Source: Candidatus Pelagisphaera phototrophica (GTDB lineage: Bacteria; Verrucomicrobiota; Verrucomicrobiia; Opitutales; Opitutaceae). Taken from it: a stretch of 64,000 nucleotides of DNA. The translations under genes were made by a program, and so were the position numbers. Below, one piece after another: positions 15,752 to 42,257 of this stretch. Position 1 is the stretch's first letter. Each line of letters starts with the position of its first letter. Below the pieces are notes generated by a model. It was given only the letters and a program-made list of their open reading frames with translations. It did not search any database and was not told the origin of the DNA. The stretch is taken from contig NZ_CP076039.1 in assembly GCF_014529625.1 (NCBI RefSeq), positions 682,001 to 746,000 on the forward strand, given 5' to 3'.

Positions 15752-16888
15752 CTATTTGAAGATCTCCGCTAGCTTAGCCTCGAGCTTTGCTCCACGGAGA
15801 TTTCGGGCAATAATGCGGCCTTCCGGGTTGAGCAGGAAGCTCATTGGCAGAGCATTCACATTATAGGCGGCGGCCATTGGCGAATCCCAGCCTAATGAGT
15901 CGGATATCTGTGGCCAGGTAACTCGATCACGTTTTGAGGCCTGTTCCCAAACCGAACGGTTGTCATCTAGATTTATGGCAAAAATGGTGAAGTTGTCGTT
16001 GGAGTGCTTGTCGAGGAGTTTTATGTAGTGTCGGTTTTCGACACGGCAAGGCACGCACCAGGATGCCCAGAAGTCCACGAGAACGTACTGGCCCTTGGAA
16101 TCCTCGAGCCGATGGGATTTGCCGTCTAGGGATTGGCCGGCCAGGGAGGCTCCATTGGCACCGATAGCGGTGCGCCGAAATGATTGTACTTTCTCAATCA
16201 TCCGCTTCGAGATCGCAGCCTGGGGGCGATTTTCGGAGAAAGCCTCAACCGCATTTTCTAGCTCACTGAGTCGGTAGTCCGGATCCCACCTCAGAGAGGT
16301 TGCGTAGAGGGCAACGGATTTCCCTATTTGCTCGATCGTAAAGTCATTCAACTCGCGGCGGTGGGCAGCGTATCCTTCCACCTCTTGTTCAGAGAGTGCG
16401 GCCAATCGCTCGGCTGATGCTCCGCGAGCGGTTGCTTCGTTAAGCGCGGCCCTTGGTGGGTATACGAGGCGAGCGAGCGATTCTTTGCGAAAGGATTCAT
16501 AAGCGATGAGGGCATCTGTGTCGGGAGAGCCGGCTATTTTGAGGGCTCCGTGATCCTTTATGTCAGTTTGGACAACCACTCTCTGTCCCTCGTCGATCGC
16601 TAGTGAAATTTTACGGTCGCCGGGGAAAGCCAAGCTAAACAATCCCGGTTCGCCCTCGAACTGCTGATTAAAGTTGCCCTCCGAGTCGACTGAGAGCTTC
16701 CCCTCGAGAGTTCGGGCCTTAAGCTCGAGATTCTCTCGAAAGAGTTTGGGAACTTCGTCTGGGCTGACTTCTGGAAGCGATCCTGAAATCCAAAAATCAC
16801 CCACGGCGATGGATTGGAAGAGAACTATCGTGGCTAGTAGCGGCAAAAGTCCCTTGCGGACGAATTTTGGATTTAGTGTTATTAGCAT
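15752..16888 (-). CDS. TlpA/ResA-like thiol-disulfide oxidoreductase
   Basis: 378 aa. A signal anchor or signal peptide (residues 10-30) is followed by an approximately 200-residue N-terminal domain (beta-rich then helical, with the look of DUF4369-linked redoxins) and a C-terminal thioredoxin fold. The active site WCVPC is at 277-281 in [16 protein letters not shown]; the cis-Pro is in NALPMSFLL. Such proteins keep extracytoplasmic thiols reduced, for example for cytochrome maturation, though no such genes are nearby. Transcribed on the minus strand upstream of the cyclophilin gene with a 90-base gap; both are envelope proteins. Confidence 0.85.
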
Positions 16889-17073: not shown

Positions 17074-19611
17074 ATGCCAACTAAATCATCCCTGAGCCTT
17101 CTGATTTTCCTCGGTTTTAATCTAGTTGCGTTCGGCCAATCGATGACTTCGTCCGAAATACTACACGAGCTACAAAAACTGAAAAAAGTGGGTTCCGTCC
17201 TTTTTGTGGCGGCTCATCCAGATGACGAGAACACGACTTTGCTCTCGTATTTGGCCCAGGAAGAGAAGCTAGACACGGCTTATCTCTCGTTAACTAGGGG
17301 CGGCGGCGGGCAAAACTTGATAGGCTCTGAATTGAACCAGGAACTGGGCCTGATCCGGGCAAACGAATTACTGCAAGCCCGTAGAATTGACGGGGCCATC
17401 CAGTTGTTCACGCGAGCCCGAGATTTTGGCTATTCCAAGAACCCGGAAGACACACTCGAGAACTGGGAGGAAGACGAAGTACTCGGTGACGTCGTGTATG
17501 CGGTCCGCCAATTTAGACCGGATGTCATTATTACTCGTTTCAATCCCGAGGCAGGGCCGACTCATGGTCACCATACTGTGTCTGCCCAATTGGCTCTGAA
17601 GGCATTTAGCCTAGCGGCCGATCCGCATGCCTTTACGGAGCAATTGAGCGAGCTTGAAACGCATCAGGCAAAAAGGATTTTATGGAACGGGTTTGGGCAA
17701 AGACGGAGAGGTGGAGGCGGGCCACCGCCCGCGAGCTTAGAAGACGAATCGCGCGAAGTGGTGTCTTTGGAAGTGGGACGTTACAATCCGTATCTAGGAA
17801 CTTCCTACACGGAACTTTCGGCGAGAAGCCGTAGTATGCACAAGAGCCAAGGTTTCGGACGGGCGGGGCAGCGTGGATCTCAGTTTGAGCGAATGGTCTT
17901 GCTGGCCGGCGAACCGTCTGAGGGCGATTTTCTAAAGGGTGTCGAAACCAGCTGGCGCCGCTACTCCGGTAGCTCTCAACTGGATTCGCTCTTTGAAAGC
18001 GCCATAGGCGACTTTGATGCGGCGTCTCCCTGGAAATCAGTACGAGCATTGTTAGAGATAGACGCGTTACTAGAAAAACTCCAAGTTGATCGGCAAATTC
18101 GTTCCAAGCGGAGCTCGTTGCAAAAGCTCATTGCGGCCTGTATGGGACTTCATTTGCAAGCGCGAGCGCCTCAGGCAGACTTGACGCCCGGTGAGTCTGT
18201 GAAGCTCGATGTGGAATTTATTAACCGTTCCCCCATCGAAGCGAGAGTTGTCAACTTGGAGGCGAATTTATTCGAGAGCTCTCGTTGGCCCGAGGAGATT
18301 TCGTTAACCCGTATAGAAGATTTGGATAAGGAACTGGATTCAAACGCAGTCGAGTTCGTTTCGCTGAACGTGAACTTGCCTATCGATTCTCCTCTAACGC
18401 GTCCCTACTGGCTCGAGGACGAAGCCAGCGTGGGTATCTACAGCCTTCGGAATCGGCGATTGCTGGAATTGGAGTCGATACCATCTTCGCTTTCTGTTTC
18501 GGCCGTTGTTGAGATCCAGGGTCGCCCAGTTACCTTGAACGTTCCGGTGGTTCAGGTCGTTAGTGATCCCGTGAAAGGTGAGGTGCACGAGCAGGTCTTG
18601 ATACGTCCCGAGATTACTCTCTCGCCTGAGAATTCCATTTTGCTTTTTGAGAATTCGCAAGCGAAGGAGATCGAAGTGCTCGTCCAGAGCAATGTGGAGG
18701 CTGCGGTCGGAAAATTGACGGCGGAAGGCCCCCAGGGCTGGAAGATCCGTATTGCCCAGCCCGAGTTTGAGCTGGAGGACGTGCAAAGTTCACAGCGGAT
18801 CCGGGTACAATTGACGCCTCCTGCTAACGCTTCCGAAGGAAAGATCGTCTTCAATGCGATTAACGAGTCGGGTAAAGAATTCGACTCGAGCTACCGGGAG
18901 ATTTTCTATGAGCATATTGGCCGGCAGCCGATTCTCAATCGAGCGGTCACCAAGGTGACAAGATTGGACCTAGGGCGCGGAGGAAGCCGAATAGCCTGTA
19001 TCGAAGGGGTTGGGGATACCGTTCCTGACACTCTGAGCAAGATCGGCTATGAAGTGGACATAGTGTTGATTGGAGAATTGGAGAAAGGGCGTCTAGATAG
19101 TTACGACACGGTGATACTCGGACCACGCGTTTTTGATGCCTATGCGGGATTGGACAAAAGATTTGATGTGCTGCTCAACTACGTAGAGAATGGGGGAACT
19201 CTCGTATCCCAGTACAGCACGACAAGTTTTAGAGCGAAGTCACAGTTTACATCCCCTTACCCCATTCGATTGTCCAGAGATCGTGTTTCCGAGGAAAAAG
19301 CAGAGATGCGGTTGCTTCAACCAGATCACGTTGTATTTAACTACCCAAATAAGATTACTAAAATCGACTTTGATAACTGGATACAAGAGAGAGGGCTCTA
19401 TTACGCTTCCTCATGGGATGATCACTATGACGCTCTGATCTCTGCCAACGACAGAGGGGAACCCCCGAGAAATGGAGGACTTTTAGTGACTGAATACGGT
19501 AAGGGCTGGTACGTGTACACGGGACTTTCCTTTTTTAGACAGTTGCCAAATGGGAATCCAGGCGCGATACGACTATTTGTGAATTTAATTTCTTTAGGCC
19601 ATGGAGACTGA
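17074..19611 (+). CDS. Large exported PIG-L (LmbE-like) family deacetylase
   Basis: 845 aa from ATG 17074, chosen because it gives a clean signal peptide (SLLIFLGFNLVAFGQ); an in-frame TTG at 17002 would add 24 charged residues. The Zn-dependent PIG-L domain has AHPDDE at 47-52 and PTHGHHTVS near residue 173. After about residue 370 come beta-rich segments resembling NPCBM/bacterial Ig modules and a final alpha/beta region (YDTVILGPRVFDAY, ThuA-like in feel). These enzymes remove N-acetyl groups from sugars. First gene of a coupled operon leading to bacillithiol genes; its stop lies inside the next small gene. Substrate unknown. Confidence 0.82.
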   Translation: MPTKSSLSLLIFLGFNLVAFGQSMTSSEILHELQKLKKVGSVLFVAAHPDDENTTLLSYLAQEEKLDTAYLSLTRGGGGQNLIGSELNQELGLIRANELLQARRIDGAIQLFTRARDFGYSKNPEDTLENWEEDEVLGDVVYAVRQFRPDVIITRFNPEAGPTHGHHTVSAQLALKAFSLAADPHAFTEQLSELETHQAKRILWNGFGQRRRGGGGPPPASLEDESREVVSLEVGRYNPYLGTSYTELSARSRSMHKSQGFGRAGQRGSQFERMVLLAGEPSEGDFLKGVETSWRRYSGSSQLDSLFESAIGDFDAASPWKSVRALLEIDALLEKLQVDRQIRSKRSSLQKLIAACMGLHLQARAPQADLTPGESVKLDVEFINRSPIEARVVNLEANLFESSRWPEEISLTRIEDLDKELDSNAVEFVSLNVNLPIDSPLTRPYWLEDEASVGIYSLRNRRLLELESIPSSLSVSAVVEIQGRPVTLNVPVVQVVSDPVKGEVHEQVLIRPEITLSPENSILLFENSQAKEIEVLVQSNVEAAVGKLTAEGPQGWKIRIAQPEFELEDVQSSQRIRVQLTPPANASEGKIVFNAINESGKEFDSSYREIFYEHIGRQPILNRAVTKVTRLDLGRGGSRIACIEGVGDTVPDTLSKIGYEVDIVLIGELEKGRLDSYDTVILGPRVFDAYAGLDKRFDVLLNYVENGGTLVSQYSTTSFRAKSQFTSPYPIRLSRDRVSEEKAEMRLLQPDHVVFNYPNKITKIDFDNWIQERGLYYASSWDDHYDALISANDRGEPPRNGGLLVTEYGKGWYVYTGLSFFRQLPNGNPGAIRLFVNLISLGHGD

Positions 19612-19761: not shown

Positions 19762-21456
19762 ATGAGCGGAATCGATATTGTTGTTTTGGGGGTAACCCTC
19801 TTCGCCATCGTCTTTTTTGGGGTTTGGATGACCCGGAATGATCAAAAGCTGGACGAGTTTCTAAAGGGAAATTCTAATAGTTGGGGAACGATAGGTTTAT
19901 CGGTAATGGCTACCCAGGCCAGTGCGATCACCTTCCTTTCGACTCCGGGCTTGGCCTACGACAGCGGAATGGCCTTTGTGCAAAACTACTTTGGCATGCC
20001 GCTGGCCCTTATCCTGATCGCCATCGTTTTTGTACCCATGTATTACAAGCTCGAGCTGTGTTCGGTGTATGAATTCCTGGAGCATCGGTTCGACTCGAAA
20101 ACACGCACTTTGGGAAGCGTGATTTTTCTTATCCAGCGGGGTTTTTCTGCGGGAATCACAATCTATGCCCCGTCGATTATCCTGACCAGCGTACTTGGCT
20201 GGGACATGAATACTACGGTTATTGGGGTCGGCTTGGCTGTCGTCATTTACACGGTGACGGGAGGTTCCCACGCAGTGAGCCTTACTCACAAATACCAAAT
20301 GACTGTTATTCTTTCTGGCATGGCAGTCGCGTTTGGAATCGTTATATACAAAATATCAGGACACGCAGGATTTAGGGAAAATTTGAGCATTGCGGGAGCG
20401 CTCGGGCATCTCAACGTGGTCGACTTCTCATTTGATTTGGACAAACGTTACACACTATGGTCCGGATTGCTCGGCGGGTTCTTTCTTTCCCTGTCATACT
20501 TTGGGACGGACCAGTCTCAGGCACAGCGCTACATGTCAGGGCAATCGATTCGAGATAGCCGCCTGGGTTTGATGTTTAATGCCTTATTGAAGGTTCCTAT
20601 GCAGTTCATGATTCTGCTGCTAGGAGTTCTCGTATTCGTCTTCTACCAATGGGAAAAGCCACCCGCTACTTTCCTTCCTGAATCGATGACAGAGGCGGCG
20701 GTTGCTGCCGATGCGGAGACTTACCAAAACTATGAAAACGCGTTTATTGGTAATTTCAAAAGTCAGAAGAGCGCGATGCAGGAATTCGTCGGAGCCTTGC
20801 GAGCAGGAGATGAAGCGCTGGCGCTCTCCAGCAAAGAAAAACTTAAGGTAGCAGGAGAGGAAAGTCGGCAATCCCGAGCCAACTTAAAGACGCATATCGC
20901 GACGGTTACCGGAGCGGAGAGCATGAAAGAAACGGACTACGTTTTTATTCACTTCGTCTTGAACGAGCTGCCAATCGGATTAATTGGATTGCTAGTCGCC
21001 GTTATTCTGAGTGCCGCTATGTCGTCAACCGCTTCAGAATTGAGTGCATTGGCGACCATATCGACGGTAGATTTCTACCAAAGCCATTTCAGCAAAAACC
21101 AATCGGACGCCCACTATAAAACAGTTTCGCGTGTATTCACTGCAGTTTGGGGTGGGCTGGCGATTCTCTTTGCCCTTTTTGCGAGTATGGTAGAAAGTTT
21201 GATTGAAGCGGTTAATATTGTAGGATCGCTGTTTTATGGAACGGTACTAGGTCTATTTTTAGCGGCGTTCTTCATTAGAAGAATCGGAGCACACGCCGCT
21301 TTTATCGCCGCGATCATTGCCCAACTGTCGGTTTTGTTTATTTACTTTTCAGATATCGTAACGATCGGCTACCTCTGGTACAATCTAATCGCCTGTGGTC
21401 TAGTAATTGTATTGAGCCTTATGCTACAAACTGTGATGGGAGGCAGGAAGTTCTAG
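19762..21456 (+). CDS. Sodium:solute symporter (SSS family)
   Basis: 564 aa, LeuT-fold SSS carrier with about 13 membrane segments. Recognisable SSS features are VMATQASAITFLSTPGLAYDSG (residues about 47-70), a VYTVTGGSHAV segment and SYFGTDQSQAQRYMSG. A soluble stretch of about 90 charged residues (roughly 305-395) interrupts the transmembrane region, longer than in many relatives. Solute unknown. It is coupled to the small membrane protein before it, and its stop (TAG) shares one base with the GTG of the BshC-like gene, so it belongs to the same transcript as the bacillithiol genes. Confidence 0.9.
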   Translation: MSGIDIVVLGVTLFAIVFFGVWMTRNDQKLDEFLKGNSNSWGTIGLSVMATQASAITFLSTPGLAYDSGMAFVQNYFGMPLALILIAIVFVPMYYKLELCSVYEFLEHRFDSKTRTLGSVIFLIQRGFSAGITIYAPSIILTSVLGWDMNTTVIGVGLAVVIYTVTGGSHAVSLTHKYQMTVILSGMAVAFGIVIYKISGHAGFRENLSIAGALGHLNVVDFSFDLDKRYTLWSGLLGGFFLSLSYFGTDQSQAQRYMSGQSIRDSRLGLMFNALLKVPMQFMILLLGVLVFVFYQWEKPPATFLPESMTEAAVAADAETYQNYENAFIGNFKSQKSAMQEFVGALRAGDEALALSSKEKLKVAGEESRQSRANLKTHIATVTGAESMKETDYVFIHFVLNELPIGLIGLLVAVILSAAMSSTASELSALATISTVDFYQSHFSKNQSDAHYKTVSRVFTAVWGGLAILFALFASMVESLIEAVNIVGSLFYGTVLGLFLAAFFIRRIGAHAAFIAAIIAQLSVLFIYFSDIVTIGYLWYNLIACGLVIVLSLMLQTVMGGRKF

Positions 21457-22235
21457 TGTCTTCACCGGTTATTTGTTTTGGCCAGCAGCCCTGTGGGATT
21501 TTTCCTAATCGGTTTGTGTTTTCTAAAATAAAAACCGCTCGACGATTACAATCCGAAATTGGAGGAAAAATCGTATTCTTCCTGCACGATAGCGACCACG
21601 ACTTTCGGGAAACTTGCGCTAGTTTAGTCAATCGCCATACCGGTAAAACTGAGCGAATCAACTTCGAGTTCGTAAACAAGATCCAGAAGCTTTACTCTCC
21701 ATTGTATTGCAAGTCGATAAAGCCTGGCTGGAAGGAGAAAACTCGACGCTGCCTGCCAAATTTGGTCGCCCTAGAACTTGTCGATATTTTCGATTCTGTT
21801 GATTCCTCAAACGTTGCAGAATTTTGCATAGAGATGTATCAGAAGATGGGATTACTAGAGGGAGTTGAGATCGTGCGTTCAAGCGACCCAGAGCTAAGGG
21901 AAAAGGCGATTAAAGTGAATGACTACTTTTTGGATACACCGTATGAGGGGGAGATCGTTAGAGCACGTCATCGAGAGAAAGGCTATTGCCTCTTTAAAGG
22001 CGGTGGCAAATTTATCCCTATTGAAGTCCCTGTCATTCGGAAATCGATGATTAGCCCAGCCCGGGATACTCGCCTCCGTTGGATGCAATCTGTGGTGCAT
22101 TGCACTCATTACATTGCAGGGGAAGGGGAAATTCAGTACTTGAATCAAAGTGATGCTCCTGAGATTGAATTTGTGAAACGTCACTTTATTGAAAGACCAG
22201 GAGATGCATACGCAGAGAGGAAAAATGACTGGTAG
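21456..22235 (+). CDS. Short BshC-like protein (candidate bacillithiol cysteine-adding enzyme)
   Basis: 259 aa from a GTG start overlapping the symporter stop. Not assignable with certainty. Its N-terminus (VICFGQQPCGIFPNRFVFSKIKT, then KIVFFLHDSDHDFRE) follows the pattern of BshC, which has a GQQPG(L/I)F block with a nearby tyrosine/lysine helix and a SEDHDFxE block. BshC is normally about 530 residues; this protein stops at half that and lacks the coiled-coil region. It sits directly before bshB and bshA, with an 11-base overlap into bshB. Proposed role: adding cysteine to glucosamine-malate as the last step of bacillithiol synthesis. An unrelated function cannot be excluded. Confidence 0.6.
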   Translation: MSSPVICFGQQPCGIFPNRFVFSKIKTARRLQSEIGGKIVFFLHDSDHDFRETCASLVNRHTGKTERINFEFVNKIQKLYSPLYCKSIKPGWKEKTRRCLPNLVALELVDIFDSVDSSNVAEFCIEMYQKMGLLEGVEIVRSSDPELREKAIKVNDYFLDTPYEGEIVRARHREKGYCLFKGGGKFIPIEVPVIRKSMISPARDTRLRWMQSVVHCTHYIAGEGEIQYLNQSDAPEIEFVKRHFIERPGDAYAERKNDW

Positions 22236-22938
22236 CCGCATTTTAGTTTTTGGGGCTCATCCGGACGACATAGAGTTCGGTTGCGGCGCTGTGCTATTGG
22301 ACGCAGCAGCCCGTGGCGCTAAAATCGATCTAGTAGTGCTCTCTAGAGGCGAAGCGGGATCTCATGGAAATCGATCCATTCGTGAGAAGGAAGCCCTAAA
22401 GGCCGCAGAAATGATGGGGGCCGCGCTTCACTTTGCCTCAACTCCAGGGGACACCCGCCTCCAGGCTGACCTTGAAATCAAGCTTCTTGCAGCGAGAGAG
22501 ATTCGTCGGCTCAAACCAGATTTGGTTTTTGCTCCTACGGGTCATCTGAATCAGCATCCTGACCATCGTGAGACCAGCCACCTCGTTCGGGATGCGAATC
22601 GTCTAGCGCGGTACGGGAAGACCCCTGGTCTTGAGAACTGGGAGCCGCATGCAAGCAGGGCTCTTCTGTTTTACGATATTTCGAGTGAGTCTTCGGGAAT
22701 GGATGGATTAGTGCCCATTCTGGTCGATATTTCCTCCCAGGTGGAAAAGTGGATAGATCTGATGAAATGCCACGAAAGTCAGACTGGGAGTCTAGACTAT
22801 GTCGACTTGCAACTCTCGCGTGCACGCACCCTAGGCATACAGGCAGGCGTGAACTCCGCGCTCCGTCTATATTCTGAAGGTCCCTTGCTTTGGAGTTCGA
22901 TTGAGACTGTCCTTTCCGCTTATGGACCTCGATTGTAA
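22225..22938 (+). CDS. bshB1: N-acetyl-alpha-D-glucosaminyl L-malate deacetylase (BshB1-like)
   Basis: 237 aa from ATG 22225, preceded by GAGAGG 5 bases upstream. Compact PIG-L deacetylase with the zinc motif AHPDDIEFGCG at 11-21, SRGEAGSHGN, and HLNQHPDHRETSHLV with the catalytic and metal His. This is the BshB1 pattern: removal of acetyl from GlcNAc-malate to give GlcN-malate in the cytoplasm. Followed 12 bases later by bshA, which makes the substrate, strongly supporting the assignment. Confidence 0.9.
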   Translation: MTGSRILVFGAHPDDIEFGCGAVLLDAAARGAKIDLVVLSRGEAGSHGNRSIREKEALKAAEMMGAALHFASTPGDTRLQADLEIKLLAAREIRRLKPDLVFAPTGHLNQHPDHRETSHLVRDANRLARYGKTPGLENWEPHASRALLFYDISSESSGMDGLVPILVDISSQVEKWIDLMKCHESQTGSLDYVDLQLSRARTLGIQAGVNSALRLYSEGPLLWSSIETVLSAYGPRL

Positions 22939-22950
22939 CTCGCTTTGAGC

Positions 22951-24090
22951 ATGGAGGAACCGCTGAATATCGCCTTGCTTTGCCATCCTACCGTGGGCGG
23001 GAGCGGAATTTTGGCTACAGAGCTCGGGCATCGACTAGCGGATCGCGGCCATGAGATCTATGTGATCTCCGAGCGCCCGCCATTCCGATTGAGAGAGGAC
23101 CATCCTCGGATTCACTTTTACGAATCAACTCCAGTGGAGTTCCCCCTTTTCAAAAGCCCTGACCACACGCTTCCACTAGCCACGCGGATCACTGAGGTTT
23201 GCGCGAATCATCAAATTGATCTCATTCATGCGCACTATGCGATTCCGCATACCGCCGCTGCCTGGATTGCCAAGGAGTTAATCGGACAGGCCGCACCGCC
23301 GATTATTACGACCCTGCATGGCACTGATATCATCTATCTTGGAGCGATGTCTGAGTATCGACCATTGCTTCAGCATGTTCTCGAAGCATCGAATTTGGTG
23401 ACTTGCGTTTCCCGGAACTTGAAGGAGCGTACCGAGCAACTTTTTAACCTGGATACTGAGATTGAAGTAGTGCCGAATTTTTTCGAGCCCAAGCCGGTTA
23501 CTCGATCGCGGGAGGACATTCGAGCCTCTTTAGATGTAGGGGATGGCGTTTTGGCAATTCATGCCTCGAATCTCCGTTCAATAAAACGAATTGATCTGAT
23601 GCTGGATGCCCTCAAGGAAGCGGTATCCCGTTGCGATGCGAATCTCCTGATTATGGCGGGAGCAGAAGTATCACGGATTCAACCCGAGATCAAAAAGCGC
23701 GACCTCGAGAGCCATGTCCGAATCGTTGATGATGTGTATGAGATTGATAATTACTACGCAGCCTCGGACTTCACCCTGTATACTTCGGAATATGAGAGCT
23801 TCTGCCTTGGAATTTTAGAGGGGATGAGGCACGGCTTGCCTAGTATAGCATTTGAAGTTGGAGGCATCCCTGAAGTTGTGGTCAATGAAGATTCAGGCAT
23901 TCTGGTTCCATTTGGGGATATCGAAGCGTTAGGCGCCGCAATTGTGAGACTAGTTGGGGACCGAGATTGCCGAAAAGAGATGGGTGCAAGTGCAAGGGCG
24001 AGGGCAGAAAAAGAGTTTTCAGCAGGTGCGATTGTGGATTCCTATTTGGGAGCCTATAGAAGGGTTCTCGCTCGCGAAAGCTCGATGTAA
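22951..24090 (+). CDS. bshA: N-acetyl-alpha-D-glucosaminyl L-malate synthase
   Basis: 379 aa (a TTG 6 bases upstream is an alternative start). GT4-family GT-B glycosyltransferase. Signature features of BshA are the opening LNIALLCHPTVGGSGILATELG, the HAHYAIPHT motif, TTLHGTDIIYLG, ASNLRSIKRID and the donor site YESFCLGILEGMRHGLPSIAFEVGG. It joins UDP-GlcNAc and L-malate as the first step of bacillithiol synthesis. Last clear gene of the operon beginning with the large PIG-L deacetylase. Confidence 0.93.
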   Translation: MEEPLNIALLCHPTVGGSGILATELGHRLADRGHEIYVISERPPFRLREDHPRIHFYESTPVEFPLFKSPDHTLPLATRITEVCANHQIDLIHAHYAIPHTAAAWIAKELIGQAAPPIITTLHGTDIIYLGAMSEYRPLLQHVLEASNLVTCVSRNLKERTEQLFNLDTEIEVVPNFFEPKPVTRSREDIRASLDVGDGVLAIHASNLRSIKRIDLMLDALKEAVSRCDANLLIMAGAEVSRIQPEIKKRDLESHVRIVDDVYEIDNYYAASDFTLYTSEYESFCLGILEGMRHGLPSIAFEVGGIPEVVVNEDSGILVPFGDIEALGAAIVRLVGDRDCRKEMGASARARAEKEFSAGAIVDSYLGAYRRVLARESSM

Positions 24091-24759: not shown

Positions 24760-25485
24760 TCAGTCGTTTATCTCGCGGTTGATTCTCTCTTCAAGCGCTT
24801 TCCTGCTTATCGTTCCTGAGTGCCGCCACTTTTCTTCGCCTTTGACGAAGAGAACGAACACTGGAACTCCTTGAACTTCATATTGGTCCGCGATTTCGGG
24901 GTTCGCGTCCACATCGATTTTAAGGATCGCTGCCTTTCCTTTGAATTCCGTACCTATAGCATCAATGACGGGTTCCATCTGTTTACAGGGGGCGCACCAT
25001 TGCGTTTGAAAGTCGATCAAGGCGAGGCGGCTTTGGGATAGGGTTTGGGCAAAGTCTTTTGGACTGATTGATGGAGTGAGCTTTTTGGATTCGGACTTGG
25101 CCTTTTCCAGCGGAAGCTCAGCCTTGTTCCATGTACCGATCCCTCCCAAGAGATTGTACACCTTGCTAAATCCGTTTTTTCTCATGGTCTTAGCCGCTTG
25201 GGAGCTGCGACCTCCGGAACGGCAGTAGACATAGATCGGTTTGTCTTTCTGCATGAAATTCAGCTTTCGCTCGAAATTCTCGTCGTAGATGTTGAGTACA
25301 CTGGCACCCGGGATCTTTCCTTGCGCCACTTCCTTAGGGGTTCTCACATCTAGCAAAATGCCTTCCCCGCTATCGACGAGCGCCTTGAATTCGTTCACCG
25401 AAAGATCCTCAATTGGCGAGTCCGCAAAGGCGGTTCCGGCTACGAGAAGCAGAGTAATGGTAAATCGGCTCAAAAAAGAATGCAT
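24760..25485 (-). CDS. Exported rhodanese-thioredoxin fusion protein
   Basis: 241 aa. Signal peptide at 1-21. Residues 28-125 are a rhodanese domain (ILLDVRTPKE; active loop CRSGGRS with Cys88). Residues 140-238 are a thioredoxin domain with WCAPC at 163-167 and the cis-Pro in QGVPVFVLF. The fusion joins sulfane-sulfur transfer with disulfide reduction in the periplasm and could reduce persulfides formed on Cys88. Convergent with the secreted unknown. Being close to the bacillithiol operon is suggestive of thiol metabolism but not proof. Confidence 0.88.
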   Translation of the reverse strand: MHSFLSRFTITLLLVAGTAFADSPIEDLSVNEFKALVDSGEGILLDVRTPKEVAQGKIPGASVLNIYDENFERKLNFMQKDKPIYVYCRSGGRSSQAAKTMRKNGFSKVYNLLGGIGTWNKAELPLEKAKSESKKLTPSISPKDFAQTLSQSRLALIDFQTQWCAPCKQMEPVIDAIGTEFKGKAAILKIDVDANPEIADQYEVQGVPVFVLFVKGEEKWRHSGTISRKALEERINREIND

Positions 25486-37072: not shown

Positions 37073-38926
37073 ATGACAACTCAAAATAGACTTAGAAAAC
37101 AAATCTTCGCGATCAAAGCATACCTTTTGGGCTTAACTGTGGTTGTTCTGACTTCAACAAAGGCGGGGGAGCGTTACGAGCTTGGTCCTTACATTGTCGG
37201 TGCGACTCGAACCGAGCGTGATGCGAGCACCTTGGGAATTAGTGCAGACGTCTTGTTAGGGAGTGAGGTTGATCGTAAGATGTACCGTGATTTGCGGCAC
37301 GTTTTGTTCGACATGAAAGGGGTTTATTCGCAAAGCGATGAGGCAATGGGCTCGACAGCGGAAGTTATGATTCGAGGGAATTCGGGCTCGCGGGTACTGA
37401 CAATGGTTGACGGGGCAAAAACCAACACCTCCATTTTTTCCAATGGCCGCTTCATTACTGGGGCCAGTGGCTTTAATTTGGGGCGGGTGGAAGTTGTTCG
37501 AGGAGCCCAAAGCACGCTCTATGGATCCAGTGCGATCGGTGGAGTAATCCTGCTAGAGACGAGGCAAGGTCGAGGAACGCCGCGCTACACCTTTACGAAT
37601 GAGCTGGGTTCCTATAACAGCTTTCTGACTGCCTTTCAGGGACAGGGTGAGGCAGGAGAACTTGATTTTTCTTTTCATGCGGCCAGTCAAGAAAGTGACA
37701 ACGAGCTCAGTGACAATGAAGGCAAGATGAAGAGCTATTCTTTCCGATTGGACTACGACTTGTCTGAAAATACCACGGTTGGCATTTCGTCGCGGGGCGA
37801 GTTTACGGATTACAGTAATCCAGTGGGCGATCTGACACCTCCTCCTTCAACACGTGTGCAAAGTGATACGATAGCGGTAAGCGCTTATGTAAAAACAAGT
37901 CGTGAAAATTGGACTCAGAAGTTTACTGCCTCTATGCTGGACGAGTATTATCGGCAAACAGGCTTCATCTACATTGGAGATGCAGCAAACTGGTCTCTCG
38001 ATTGGCAGAATACTGTTGATGTATCCGATTCATTAAGACTGGTAGCAGGGTCAACTTGGGAGCGCCAGGAAGGAAACGATAATTCGTTTCCAGAAAGCGA
38101 GAGCGATAACTGGGCGCTCTTTGCCCAAGCAGAGATCGAAGCGGGCGAAGGGGTTAACCTCGTTTTGGGAGCTCGACACGATGATTATGATATCGCGGGA
38201 TCGAAGACAACTTGGCGAGCGAATGGAGCCTGGGAACTTCCCACCAAAACGAAACTTCGGGCGGCTATTGGCACCGCATTTAGAGCACCCAATTTCTTTC
38301 GCCTCTTTTCCACTTCGAGTTTCGCTCTGGGTAATCCGAATTTGAAACCCGAAGAGAGTAAAAGCTGGGAAGTCGGCTTCGACCAATATTACAAAAATGG
38401 AGCAATTCAACTAGGCGCTACCGTTTTTCAGAACGATATTGAGGATCTTGTAGTGTACGTGCCTACTACAGGTTTTGATGGAACCTACGCTAATCGGGAC
38501 AGTGCCGAGAATTACGGATTGGAAGCCTATGTGAGCTATCAGTTGAAAGAGAATTGGTCGGCAAATTTGGCATACACCTGGACGGAATCGAGCGCGACCG
38601 ACCTAAGTTTCAATACTACGTCGCGCTTGCCCGGGGTTCCTCGGCATCAGATTAGTTTGAACAATGAATTTCGTTTTGACGAAAAGTGGCTAGTTGGGTC
38701 GGGTGTGAATTACGTAATTGGTCGCGAGAGCTTTGGAAGTGTAGATATTGATAATTATCTTCTAGTGAGAGGTTATTCTCGATATAGATTCAGCGATGCT
38801 GTTTCTCTGACTGCCCGTGTCGAAAACGCATTGAGCGAAGACTACACGGTCAGCTTTTCGAGTTTTTCTGGACGCGTGCCGGCGAGGGGGTTCGCCGCAT
38901 TTGCTGGAGTTGAGTGGCGGTTCTAA
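37073..38926 (+). CDS. btuB: TonB-dependent outer-membrane receptor, BtuB-like
   Basis: 617 aa, the size of BtuB. Signal sequence to about residue 34. The plug domain begins with YIVGATRTERDASTLG, a divergent TonB-box region, and contains VMIRGNSGSRVLTMVDGAK and VEVVRGAQSTLYGSSAIGGVI. The barrel covers the rest (FRAPNFFRLFSTSSFALGNPNLKPEESKSWE is the standard late-barrel block) and ends EWRF with terminal Phe. Imports cobalamin or a related ligand with TonB energy. It is the first gene after the riboswitch and leads the ABC transporter genes. Confidence 0.85.
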   Translation: MTTQNRLRKQIFAIKAYLLGLTVVVLTSTKAGERYELGPYIVGATRTERDASTLGISADVLLGSEVDRKMYRDLRHVLFDMKGVYSQSDEAMGSTAEVMIRGNSGSRVLTMVDGAKTNTSIFSNGRFITGASGFNLGRVEVVRGAQSTLYGSSAIGGVILLETRQGRGTPRYTFTNELGSYNSFLTAFQGQGEAGELDFSFHAASQESDNELSDNEGKMKSYSFRLDYDLSENTTVGISSRGEFTDYSNPVGDLTPPPSTRVQSDTIAVSAYVKTSRENWTQKFTASMLDEYYRQTGFIYIGDAANWSLDWQNTVDVSDSLRLVAGSTWERQEGNDNSFPESESDNWALFAQAEIEAGEGVNLVLGARHDDYDIAGSKTTWRANGAWELPTKTKLRAAIGTAFRAPNFFRLFSTSSFALGNPNLKPEESKSWEVGFDQYYKNGAIQLGATVFQNDIEDLVVYVPTTGFDGTYANRDSAENYGLEAYVSYQLKENWSANLAYTWTESSATDLSFNTTSRLPGVPRHQISLNNEFRFDEKWLVGSGVNYVIGRESFGSVDIDNYLLVRGYSRYRFSDAVSLTARVENALSEDYTVSFSSFSGRVPARGFAAFAGVEWRF

Positions 38927-38994
38927 ATAGGTGAAAGACTGAAGTACACGTGTGCAAGCGCTCGCATTTTTCTACAATTCCTAAATGGGTCTGT

Positions 38995-40146
38995 ATGGGC
39001 AAAGGGGGGGATTGCTTTAGGCAGTGCAGCACGCATTTGGAAATCGCTCTTTGGATCGCATTGACCTGTGTTTTGGGAAGTTCCCCCGTGTTAGGGAAGC
39101 CGGTAGAGCTTACGTATGCCAAGAACTTCAGCGTCGAGTATTTTGAAACACACAAGATCGTGACGGTTAGAAATATGTGGCGTGGTTCAGCGAACTTAAC
39201 GTTTAACTATGCGTTAGTTCCTCGGACAACAGCGGTCCCAGATTTACCGTTAGGAATGCGTATCATCCGGACGCCGGTTCAGAGAATGTCGATTCTAGAG
39301 ACGGTATATCTAGGGCATATTAAGTCTCTAGATCTGTACGACGAACTGGTTGGGCTCGCTAACGTCAGCTTAGCCCACGACCCAATGGCTCTGGAACAAG
39401 TAAAAAGTGGGTACACCAATAAAATTCAAGAGGGTAGTTCGCTGAATATAGAGACGTTGCTTATGCTTAAATCAGATCTGGTGCTTACCAGTGCCATGGG
39501 AAATCCACAATTTGATGCTCATCCACAATTGGAAAGGGCGAAGCAGCCGGTCGTGATTACAGCAGGGTACATGGAAGAGCATCCACTGGGTCGCTCGGAG
39601 TGGCTGAAGTTTACGGCAGTTTTTTTCGACAAAGAAGAGGAGGCATCAAGAATCTTTGACAAAATAGCTAAGCGCTACAACGAGTTGAGTCACATTGCGT
39701 CGAGTGCGGGATCGCGCCCAACGGTCCTTGCGAACGCTCCCTATGGGGGAACGTGGCATGTTCCCGGTGGTCGGAGTTACACAGCTCGCACAATTGAGGA
39801 TGCAGGAGGAGACTATCTGTTCTCCGACGATTCCTCGATTGGCGGTCTACCGAAGGACTTTGAAAGCGTCTACCATAGGGCAGCAGAGGTTGATTTCTGG
39901 CTTCATCCTGGAGTGCATCGTGATTTAGAGGGGCTTAGGAGCCAGGATAGCCGGTTTGCTCGATTTAGAGCGTTTGAAATCGGCAGTGTATACAACAATA
40001 CGTTACGATCTAATGGAATTGGGGGCAACGACATTTGGGAACGCGGCGTACTCCATCCGGAGTGGGTCCTAGAGGACCTAATAGCGATTTTCCACCCCGA
40101 ATTAATTCCGAACCACTCGTTCCGTTTCTACGAGAAGCTCAATTAG
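38995..40146 (+). CDS. btuF: Periplasmic B12-type ABC transporter substrate-binding protein
   Basis: 383 aa from ATG 38995; an earlier ATG at 38950 is possible. A signal peptide (IALWIALTCVLGSSPVLG) is followed by a type III binding-protein fold joined by a long helix: NIETLLMLKSDLVLTSAM, AGYMEEHPLGRSEWLKF, then the second lobe with VPGGRSYTARTIEDAGGDYLF. BtuF/FepB-like proteins carry cobalamin or metal chelates to the inner-membrane permease. The position after btuB and before btuC, under the riboswitch, favours cobalamin. Confidence 0.82.
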   Translation: MGKGGDCFRQCSTHLEIALWIALTCVLGSSPVLGKPVELTYAKNFSVEYFETHKIVTVRNMWRGSANLTFNYALVPRTTAVPDLPLGMRIIRTPVQRMSILETVYLGHIKSLDLYDELVGLANVSLAHDPMALEQVKSGYTNKIQEGSSLNIETLLMLKSDLVLTSAMGNPQFDAHPQLERAKQPVVITAGYMEEHPLGRSEWLKFTAVFFDKEEEASRIFDKIAKRYNELSHIASSAGSRPTVLANAPYGGTWHVPGGRSYTARTIEDAGGDYLFSDDSSIGGLPKDFESVYHRAAEVDFWLHPGVHRDLEGLRSQDSRFARFRAFEIGSVYNNTLRSNGIGGNDIWERGVLHPEWVLEDLIAIFHPELIPNHSFRFYEKLN

Positions 40147-40170
40147 TAAAACTATGAGGAACCAGAGTTA

Positions 40171-41241
40171 ATGCTTAGTGCAAATTGGATGGGGAGGTTT
40201 CGAATGAGTCGGACTTCCGGTTTGCTCATCGCTCTGATGTTCTTGAATCTGGTCGCTCTCGCTCTGAACATTGGTCTTGGTTCGGTACCCATTTCGATTT
40301 CAGACATTTTGGGATCTCTATTTGGAAGCGAGAAAGTTGATAACGTATTGTCTGGGATCGTACTTGAGTTTCGTTTGCCGCGGGGACTAACCGCGATGCT
40401 TGCGGGAGCGGCTTTGTCCGTTTCAGGACTAATGATGCAGACAGTATTCCGAAATCCACTCGCGGATCCATTTGTACTTGGGGTAAATGGGGGAGCTAGT
40501 TTGGGGGTCGCGATCGCACTGCTGGTATTGGCTCCTTCAGGAATAGCTTTGACTCAGAATTTGAAATTGTCGGGCCATATTCTTGTGGTGGTAGCGGCCT
40601 CAGTAGGAGCGGGAACGGTTTTGATGCTTCTCCTCGCGTTCGCGAGAAGGGTAGATGTAATGTCATTGCTGATACTTGGGCTGATGATAAGTTACGGAGT
40701 GGGAGCGATCGTGAGCATACTCATCTTCTACAGCATGGCCGATCGGTTGCAGTCCTTTTTCAATTGGTCTTTTGGAAATTTCAGCAGTGTTACTTGGTCG
40801 CATTTTCTAGTTTTTGCTCCGTCGGTGGTGATTGGTTTGGTGGCAGTTGCTCCGCAGTTTAAGTCCCTAGATGCGTTTCTCTTAGGTGAGCGATACGCAT
40901 CGAGTATGGGTGTGAATGTCAGGCGATCGAGGATACTGGTCTTGGCAAGCGCATCGCTCTTGGCGGGAGTGGTTACGGGATTCTGTGGGCCGATTGGCTT
41001 TGTGGGAATCGCTGCCCCGCATTTTTGCAGACTTCTCTTCAAGACTCCATCCCATCGCATTCTTGTTCCATCTGCGATCTTGTTTGGAAGCCTCATTGCC
41101 CTCATTGCGGATCTCATTGCCAAGGCTCCAGGAGTTGAGGCGACCTTGCCTCTAAACGCAGTGACCGCTTTGATCGGTGCTCCGGTTGTCATTGCTGCTT
41201 TGCTAAAACAGCGAAACCTGAGGAGGGTGTTTGGTGGATGA
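40171..41241 (+). CDS. btuC: FecCD-family ABC permease (BtuC-like)
   Basis: 356 aa with about 10 membrane helices. FecCD landmarks: [46 protein letters not shown], and [21 protein letters not shown] with the coupling helix. The inner-membrane channel for cobalamin-type ligands. Its stop overlaps the ATG of the ATPase gene as ATGA. Confidence 0.9.
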
Positions 41242-42257
41242 CTGAGGAGCGATACGTTTTAGAGACCTCGGGATTGTCCATTGGCTATTTTCGAGGAAAA
41301 AATGGGCATTCGCTCGTTGCCGAAGATCTTAATCTCAAGCTTCGGTTCGGAGAGCTTGTATGTCTGTTGGGGCCCAATGGTGCGGGCAAGTCTACGTTGA
41401 TTCGCACTCTTGCTGGACTGGACAAGCCTCTTGCGGGAAGGATTTTCATGGAGGGGGCTGATGCCAGCACTACAGTATCAAGAGAAAGGGCCCGATTCGT
41501 AAGCGTTGTATTGACGGATCAAGCACCGAGCGGTATGTTTACTGCCTATAGCATCGTTGCTTTGGGACGGCATCCGCATACTCGGTGGACGGGAACCTTG
41601 AGCGAACATGATCGGTCCCGTATCGAATGGGCCTTGCGGGTTGTCGATGCGGAATCTTTGTCAGAGAGGCAAGTCGGCGAATTGAGTGATGGCGAGCGCC
41701 AAAAGGTGATGATCGCACGAGCGCTGGCGCAGGACGCTAAAGTCCTTTTTCTTGATGAGCCAACGGCTTTCGTGGATCTTCCGAGAAGGGTTGAGATAAT
41801 GAGGATACTTAGGGATCTAGCCCACGAGGAAGGACTCGCGGTCATACTTTCGTCTCATGACTTAGATTTGTCGATACGTTGTGCGGACGAACTTTGGCTA
41901 ATGAATCCAGAGGGAATTGTGGTGCAAGGGTATCCAGAAGACCTAGCACTGAGGAGGCAAATCGCTCAAACGTTCCAAAGCGATGAAGTTGAATGGGATT
42001 CTGATGAAGGTTGCTTTCGACTCCACCGGAAACCTAAACGGTTGGCCTCCATGGAAGGGGAGGGGAGTGTCGCTCTCTGGACTCGTCGTGCTTTGGCTCG
42101 CAAGGGCTATGAATTAGGAAGGGTCGAAGACGCAGAACTAAAGGTGATTATTACCCATTTGAATGGGCATCCCATTTGGAGGGCGAGGATTTCAGACACT
42201 TGGAGGTCTTTTGATTCCCTGCAGTCTATGTTTCGCTGGGTTGAATCGATCTCCTAG
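41238..42257 (+). CDS. btuD: ABC transporter ATPase with C-terminal extension (BtuD/FecE-like)
   Basis: 339 aa; usual relatives are about 255. Walker [10 protein letters not shown] near residue 47, ABC signature LSDGERQKV near 150, Walker [15 protein letters not shown] and the switch His in SSHDLDL. After about residue 245 an extra domain of 95 residues ([46 protein letters not shown]) follows, which I cannot name. Drives import through the permease encoded just upstream. Overlaps that gene by 4 bases. Confidence 0.87.

Follow-up and report, generated by a model that had tools for sequence, protein, structure and literature searches.

A short, core-only relative of BshC as the probable cysteine-adding enzyme of a bacillithiol operon in Verrucomicrobiota

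Which protein would add cysteine in bacteria whose bacillithiol genes bshA and bshB stand beside a gene only about half as long as the usual bshC? The question arises from a stretch of 64,000 nucleotides of Candidatus Pelagisphaera phototrophica (Verrucomicrobiota, Opitutales; contig NZ_CP076039.1, positions 682,001 to 746,000), analysed as a whole and referred to here as the window. A survey published in 2018 placed Verrucomicrobia among the major lineages with "no documented or predicted" low-molecular-weight thiol (PMC6282198), and the main text of a 2025 survey, in which > 80% coverage was required, makes no mention of them (PMC12719100). As both surveys demanded homologues of similar length (PMC6282198, PMC12719100), a half-length BshC would be missed. 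The openly accessible literature that we searched contains no description of a short BshC.

The first-pass annotation of this locus had reported a 259-aa protein with GQQPCGIF and HDSDHDFRE blocks, encoded between an SSS symporter and bshB-bshA with overlaps on both sides, and this description was confirmed. The reading frame lies at 21456-22235 on the plus strand, the two blocks occupy residues 9-16 and 44-52, the GTG start has one base in common with the stop codon of the symporter (19762-21456), and the end of the gene overlaps the start of bshB (ATG at 22225) by 11 bases. The operon, in window coordinates, reads as follows.

17074..19611, plus strand: large PIG-L hydrolase with a signal-peptide-like N-terminus (read by eye), conserved operon partner (PF02585, 57.6 bits)
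19762..21456, plus strand: SSS-type sodium/solute symporter, conserved operon partner (TIGR00813, 215 bits)
21456..22235, plus strand: short BshC-like protein, 259 aa, GTG start, proposed cysteine-adding enzyme (open reading frame, AlphaFold model, PDB match, BshC-core profile match)
22225..22938, plus strand: bshB, a BshB1-like PIG-L deacetylase (PF02585, 84.5 bits; TIGR04001, 124.6 bits, under the cut-off of 182.5)
22951..24090, plus strand: bshA, GlcNAc-malate synthase, with an alternative TTG start at 22945 (TIGR03999, 355 bits, over the cut-off of 273.7)

Two thioredoxin-type genes flank the operon on the opposite strand, i.e., a TlpA/AhpC-TSA-type thioredoxin protein (15752-16888, minus) and a rhodanese-thioredoxin fusion with a signal-like start (24760-25485, minus). 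Elsewhere in the window, a TonB receptor, a substrate-binding protein, a FecCD-type permease and an ABC ATPase stand in a row (37073-42257), which by eye resembles a cobalamin or iron-chelate uptake cluster.

The short gene and the same neighbours are kept in 17 complete relatives from the order of the window, at 52-75% identity. Counting only loci whose contig extends far enough, bshA follows the short gene on the same strand in 66/66 cases and bshB is beside it in 49/66, with the SSS symporter upstream in 56/63 and the large PIG-L hydrolase upstream in 46/55; the hydrolase and the symporter also stand upstream in the Obscuribacterales loci. These two partners may serve to recover thiol conjugates or GlcN-malate from outside. 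The remaining 17 of the 66 loci (L039, L041, L043, L050, L056 and others), many of them named Chthoniobacterales or Spartobacteria, lack bshB between the other two genes; deacetylation there must fall to another enzyme.

Direct comparison with sequence libraries says little about the short protein. It reaches 22.4 bits with the Pfam model PF10079 (cut-off 27) and 18.6 bits with the NCBIfam model TIGR03998 (cut-off 265.8); when 57 family members were each scanned alone, E <= 0.01 was reached by ten with PF10079 and by seven with TIGR03998. Since so few were matched and no other Pfam or NCBIfam model describes any of the 57, the family is effectively unnamed in these libraries. A phmmer search of PDB sequences with the window protein gave only insignificant thioredoxin-domain and P450 matches, and the profile of the short family found no BshC sequence among them. 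The connection to BshC is made only by profile-profile and fold comparison. For the former, hhalign aligned residues 5-229 of the short protein with residues 88-358 of BshC at a score of 36.4 (E 4.9e-4), against 15.5 for reversed BshC and 22.9 for the best of 60 column-shuffled versions. The BshC control set (n = 5) consisted of two full-length proteins from the same phylum and the annotated BshC of Bacillus, Paenibacillus and Deinococcus.

This profile similarity is confined to the core of BshC: neither the N-terminal 80 residues of BshC nor its coiled coil matched the short profile, and PF24850, the coiled-coil model found in canonical BshC, is absent from the short proteins. With only 8 residues preceding GQQ, the short protein begins at about BshC residue 84 and is therefore without the ~80 residues at the BshC N-terminus; an internal segment and the C-terminal coiled coil are missing as well. 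The earlier label of a "half-length BshC" thus stands as regards size (about half the usual) and the missing coiled coil, but the protein is not simply an N-terminal half. It is not filed in the TIGR03998 equivalog because it scores below the cut-offs and has neither this N-terminus nor the coiled coil.

The AlphaFold2 model, built from the alignment of 57 short proteins, has a mean pLDDT of 92.3 and a pTM of 0.89, and describes a compact domain that is modelled with confidence almost to its last residue. As the first-pass annotation had supposed, the predicted fold is that of the BshC core, with the Bacillus subtilis structure 4wbd well ahead of every other PDB entry. Foldseek ranked it first (E 1.6e-9) as the only match below 1e-3, class I synthetases following from 5.7e-3. 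VIA-align superposed 244/259 residues on 4wbd (Z 19.4, 2.9 A) and placed a class I LysRS (1irx) second at Z 14.6; all others were below 9, with TyrRS, GluRS and CysRS at Z 8-9. By its model, the short protein belongs to the class I synthetase-like fold, nearest to BshC.

Four sets of residues (GQQ-K, DHDxxE, R...Q and GxxExxY) occur in the same order in both families and are invariant in the 57 short proteins and the 5 BshC. Their positions in the window are listed below.

21480..21488, plus strand: GQQ motif, residues 9-11 (GQQAG in BshC), invariant in 57/57 short proteins and 5/5 BshC
21525..21527, plus strand: Lys24, 15 residues from GQQ, the spacing of the invariant BshC Lys103 (numbering of L102, one of the two full-length BshC of the phylum)
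21594..21611, plus strand: DHDxxE motif, residues 47-52, invariant in both families and colinear in hhalign
22071..22088, plus strand: R206...Q211, aligned to BshC R320...Q324 (L102 numbering)
22119..22139, plus strand: GxxExxY motif, residues 222-228, with spacing identical to BshC G336-E339-Y342

With less certainty, the global alignment suggests that Arg242 is the counterpart of the "PR" arginine of BshC. Around the common motifs the short family has invariant residues of its own, i.e., PCGxxPxR after GQQ, HD before DHD and CTHY before the GxxE motif. Among its cysteines C7, C13, C124 and C216, three are invariant and one nearly so (56/57), and H44 and H218, invariant or nearly so, have no counterpart in the full-length BshC set (n = 5), which also contains no conserved cysteine. 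A zinc site like that of CysRS or MshC, made up of C7, C13, H44, C124, C216 and H218, was considered and is not claimed; one member has Ser at position 13. C216 precedes its strand in the secondary-structure order, which probably places it at a distance from the active-site edge.

The short gene and BshA are found together almost without exception. Among 132 genomes of the window's order, 19 carry both, one carries the short gene only and none BshA only; the 19 BshA-level matches comprise 18 over the cut-off and one contig-end piece, and the single exception is a 50%-complete genome in which the gene runs off the contig. In the order of genome G349 (147 genomes), 27 have both, two the short gene only and two BshA only, most of these exceptions being at contig ends or fragments. 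The short gene is thus present in 19/19 and 27/29 of the BshA genomes of the two orders (Fisher p 5e-22 for the window's order and 7e-25 for that of G349, relatedness ignored). Given that BshA, BshB and the short protein are encoded by neighbouring genes, their co-inheritance alone is no proof of a joint reaction.

The search for a full-length bshC elsewhere in the genome, which the first-pass annotation had proposed as a check, yielded no PF10079 protein in the 4.09-Mb single-contig genome of the window. The same model had a match in 0/132 genomes of the window's order, 0/147 of the order of G349 and 0/33 further named carriers, and it did match the positive controls (B. subtilis, Thermus and Deinobacterium). 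As this search is blind to the short form, the zeros concern full-length BshC only. In a sample of 241 genomes from the phylum, full BshC was detected in two only, neither of which has the short form. In these two (L102:738-1496 and L103:699-1496) the gene overlaps an upstream SAM-dependent methyltransferase, which may be an NmbA-like N-methyl-bacillithiol synthase, and BshB lies downstream. As to other thiol genes, glutathione was assessed by the GSH-synthetase ATP domain PF02955, for which the window's genome has no match. No genome of the window's order (0/132, 19 of them with BshA) has a match over the cut-off to YpdA, the known bacillithiol-disulfide reductase; either another reductase is needed or the thiol is used differently.

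The short form is no local oddity; it is a widespread, unnamed family. A scan of species genomes recovered 308 relatives, and the reading frames of the 56 intact ones that were measured are 252-273 aa long (median 256). Carriers belong to Opitutae, Chthoniobacterales/Spartobacteria, Limisphaerales and Obscuribacterales; one MAG labelled Acidobacteria and one labelled Gemmatimonadetes also have the gene. The seven Obscuribacterales sequences in the tree cluster in a single starred group amid those of Verrucomicrobiota, a placement consistent with horizontal transfer. No match to the short gene was found among plasmids, and a BshC search in viral contigs returned nothing. The operon on the contig labelled Gemmatimonadetes (L031) shares 73% identity with that of Opitutales and nests inside Opitutales in the tree, through either misbinning or recent transfer.

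We consider it likely that the short protein is a minimal, core-only relative of BshC that catalyses the last step of bacillithiol synthesis, the joining of cysteine and glucosaminyl-malate. According to this scheme, BshA would make GlcNAc-malate, BshB would remove its acetyl group, and the short protein would join L-cysteine to the free amine of GlcN-malate, the product presumably being bacillithiol. GQQ/K, DHDxxE and GxxExxY would line an active site shared with BshC, ATP would serve to activate cysteine as it does in class I synthetase folds, and the coiled coil, described as the dimerisation domain of BshC, would be dispensable for the short enzyme. The grounds for this reading are the gene with its operon, the BshC-like fold, the common motifs, the near-perfect co-occurrence with BshA and the fact that full-length BshC was not detected. 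Against it stand the weak direct sequence similarity, the lack of a YpdA over the cut-off, a BshB under the BshB1 equivalog cut-off and the 17/66 loci without a neighbouring bshB. The earlier proposal of a minimal cysteine-adding form of BshC is thus supported both by the fold and by the genome search, with the additions that the protein also lacks an internal segment and ~80 residues at the N-terminus and that the activity itself is inferred.

Alternatively, a ligase of BshC fold might join GlcN-malate to some amino acid other than cysteine, or to another thiol precursor, giving a thiol related to bacillithiol but not identical to it; the family's own invariant residues round the common motifs, the four conserved cysteines without a BshC counterpart and the lack of a YpdA over the cut-off in the window's order would all suit such a product. 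We nevertheless regard it as rather improbable, given that the BshA score over the equivalog cut-off makes GlcNAc-malate the likely scaffold and that the motifs invariant in BshC are kept. A broader scenario, which we hold as doubtful speculation, is that Verrucomicrobiota and Obscuribacterales use an undescribed thiol of the bacillithiol family, made by BshA, BshB and the minimal ligase, salvaged (as such or from its conjugates) from outside the cell by the apparently exported PIG-L hydrolase and the symporter, and reduced by an enzyme other than YpdA.

The BshC coiled coil, described in a review as needed for dimerisation (PMC4360819), is missing here, and the short protein could accordingly be one part of a split BshC, working only with an N-terminal or coiled-coil partner encoded by another gene. 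This we find very unlikely, as no PF24850 match was seen among the operon neighbours scanned, the genes that constantly accompany it in the operon encode a symporter and a hydrolase, and the model is a compact domain. Still less credible is a class I aminoacyl-tRNA synthetase or MshC paralogue acting outside the thiol pathway: LysRS is the second structural match and TyrRS, GluRS and CysRS follow, but BshC is well above them in both VIA-align and Foldseek, the short gene is tied to bshA at every locus with room, and neither a HIGH nor a KMSKS string is present in the 259-aa sequence. We give hardly any credence to the idea that the gene is a pseudogene, a product of misassembly or a bshC that has decayed or been truncated. 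Half the usual length and scores under the family cut-offs could be taken for decay, but all 56/56 reading frames measured fall within the same narrow length range with many invariant columns, and the gene occurs in dozens of species, complete chromosomes included, and is conserved across hundreds of genomes. This conservation rules out truncation, assembly error and a pseudogene; the 259-aa protein is a catalytic-core-only protein and not a fragment.

The short protein is thus very probably a new, widespread, core-only variant of BshC that works like BshC. It would supply the missing step, and its gene would predict which species make bacillithiol among soil and water bacteria thought to be without any known protective thiol. 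BshC activity had, as of 2015, never been demonstrated in vitro (PMC4360819). A natural core-only enzyme would reveal which parts of BshC are dispensable (if our reading is true, the coiled-coil domain would be so for the chemistry) and offer a simpler protein for solving the mechanism.

Set beside known systems, the short protein is closest to BshC/YllA (PF10079 + PF24850, TIGR03998; 4wbd), with which it shares the class I synthetase-like Rossmann core, the ties to BshA and BshB and the motifs GQQ...K, DHDxxE, R...Q and GxxExxY in the same order. It differs in being 259 aa instead of about 520-540 aa, in its shorter insert and the absence of the N-terminal ~80 residues and coiled coil, in scores below the Pfam and NCBIfam cut-offs, in extra invariant Cys and His, and in the symporter and second PIG-L that share its fixed operon. 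The mycothiol cysteine ligase MshC and CysRS have the class I synthetase fold as well, and the ligation of cysteine to glucosamine by MshC is analogous; however, CysRS is a far poorer structural match (Z 8.0), the short protein is without HIGH or KMSKS, and the neighbours of its gene match bacillithiol models, not mycothiol models. Class I lysyl-tRNA synthetase (1irx) is the second-best fold match (Z 14.6), but the short protein is without its anticodon-binding part and is encoded in a genomic context of thiol synthesis.
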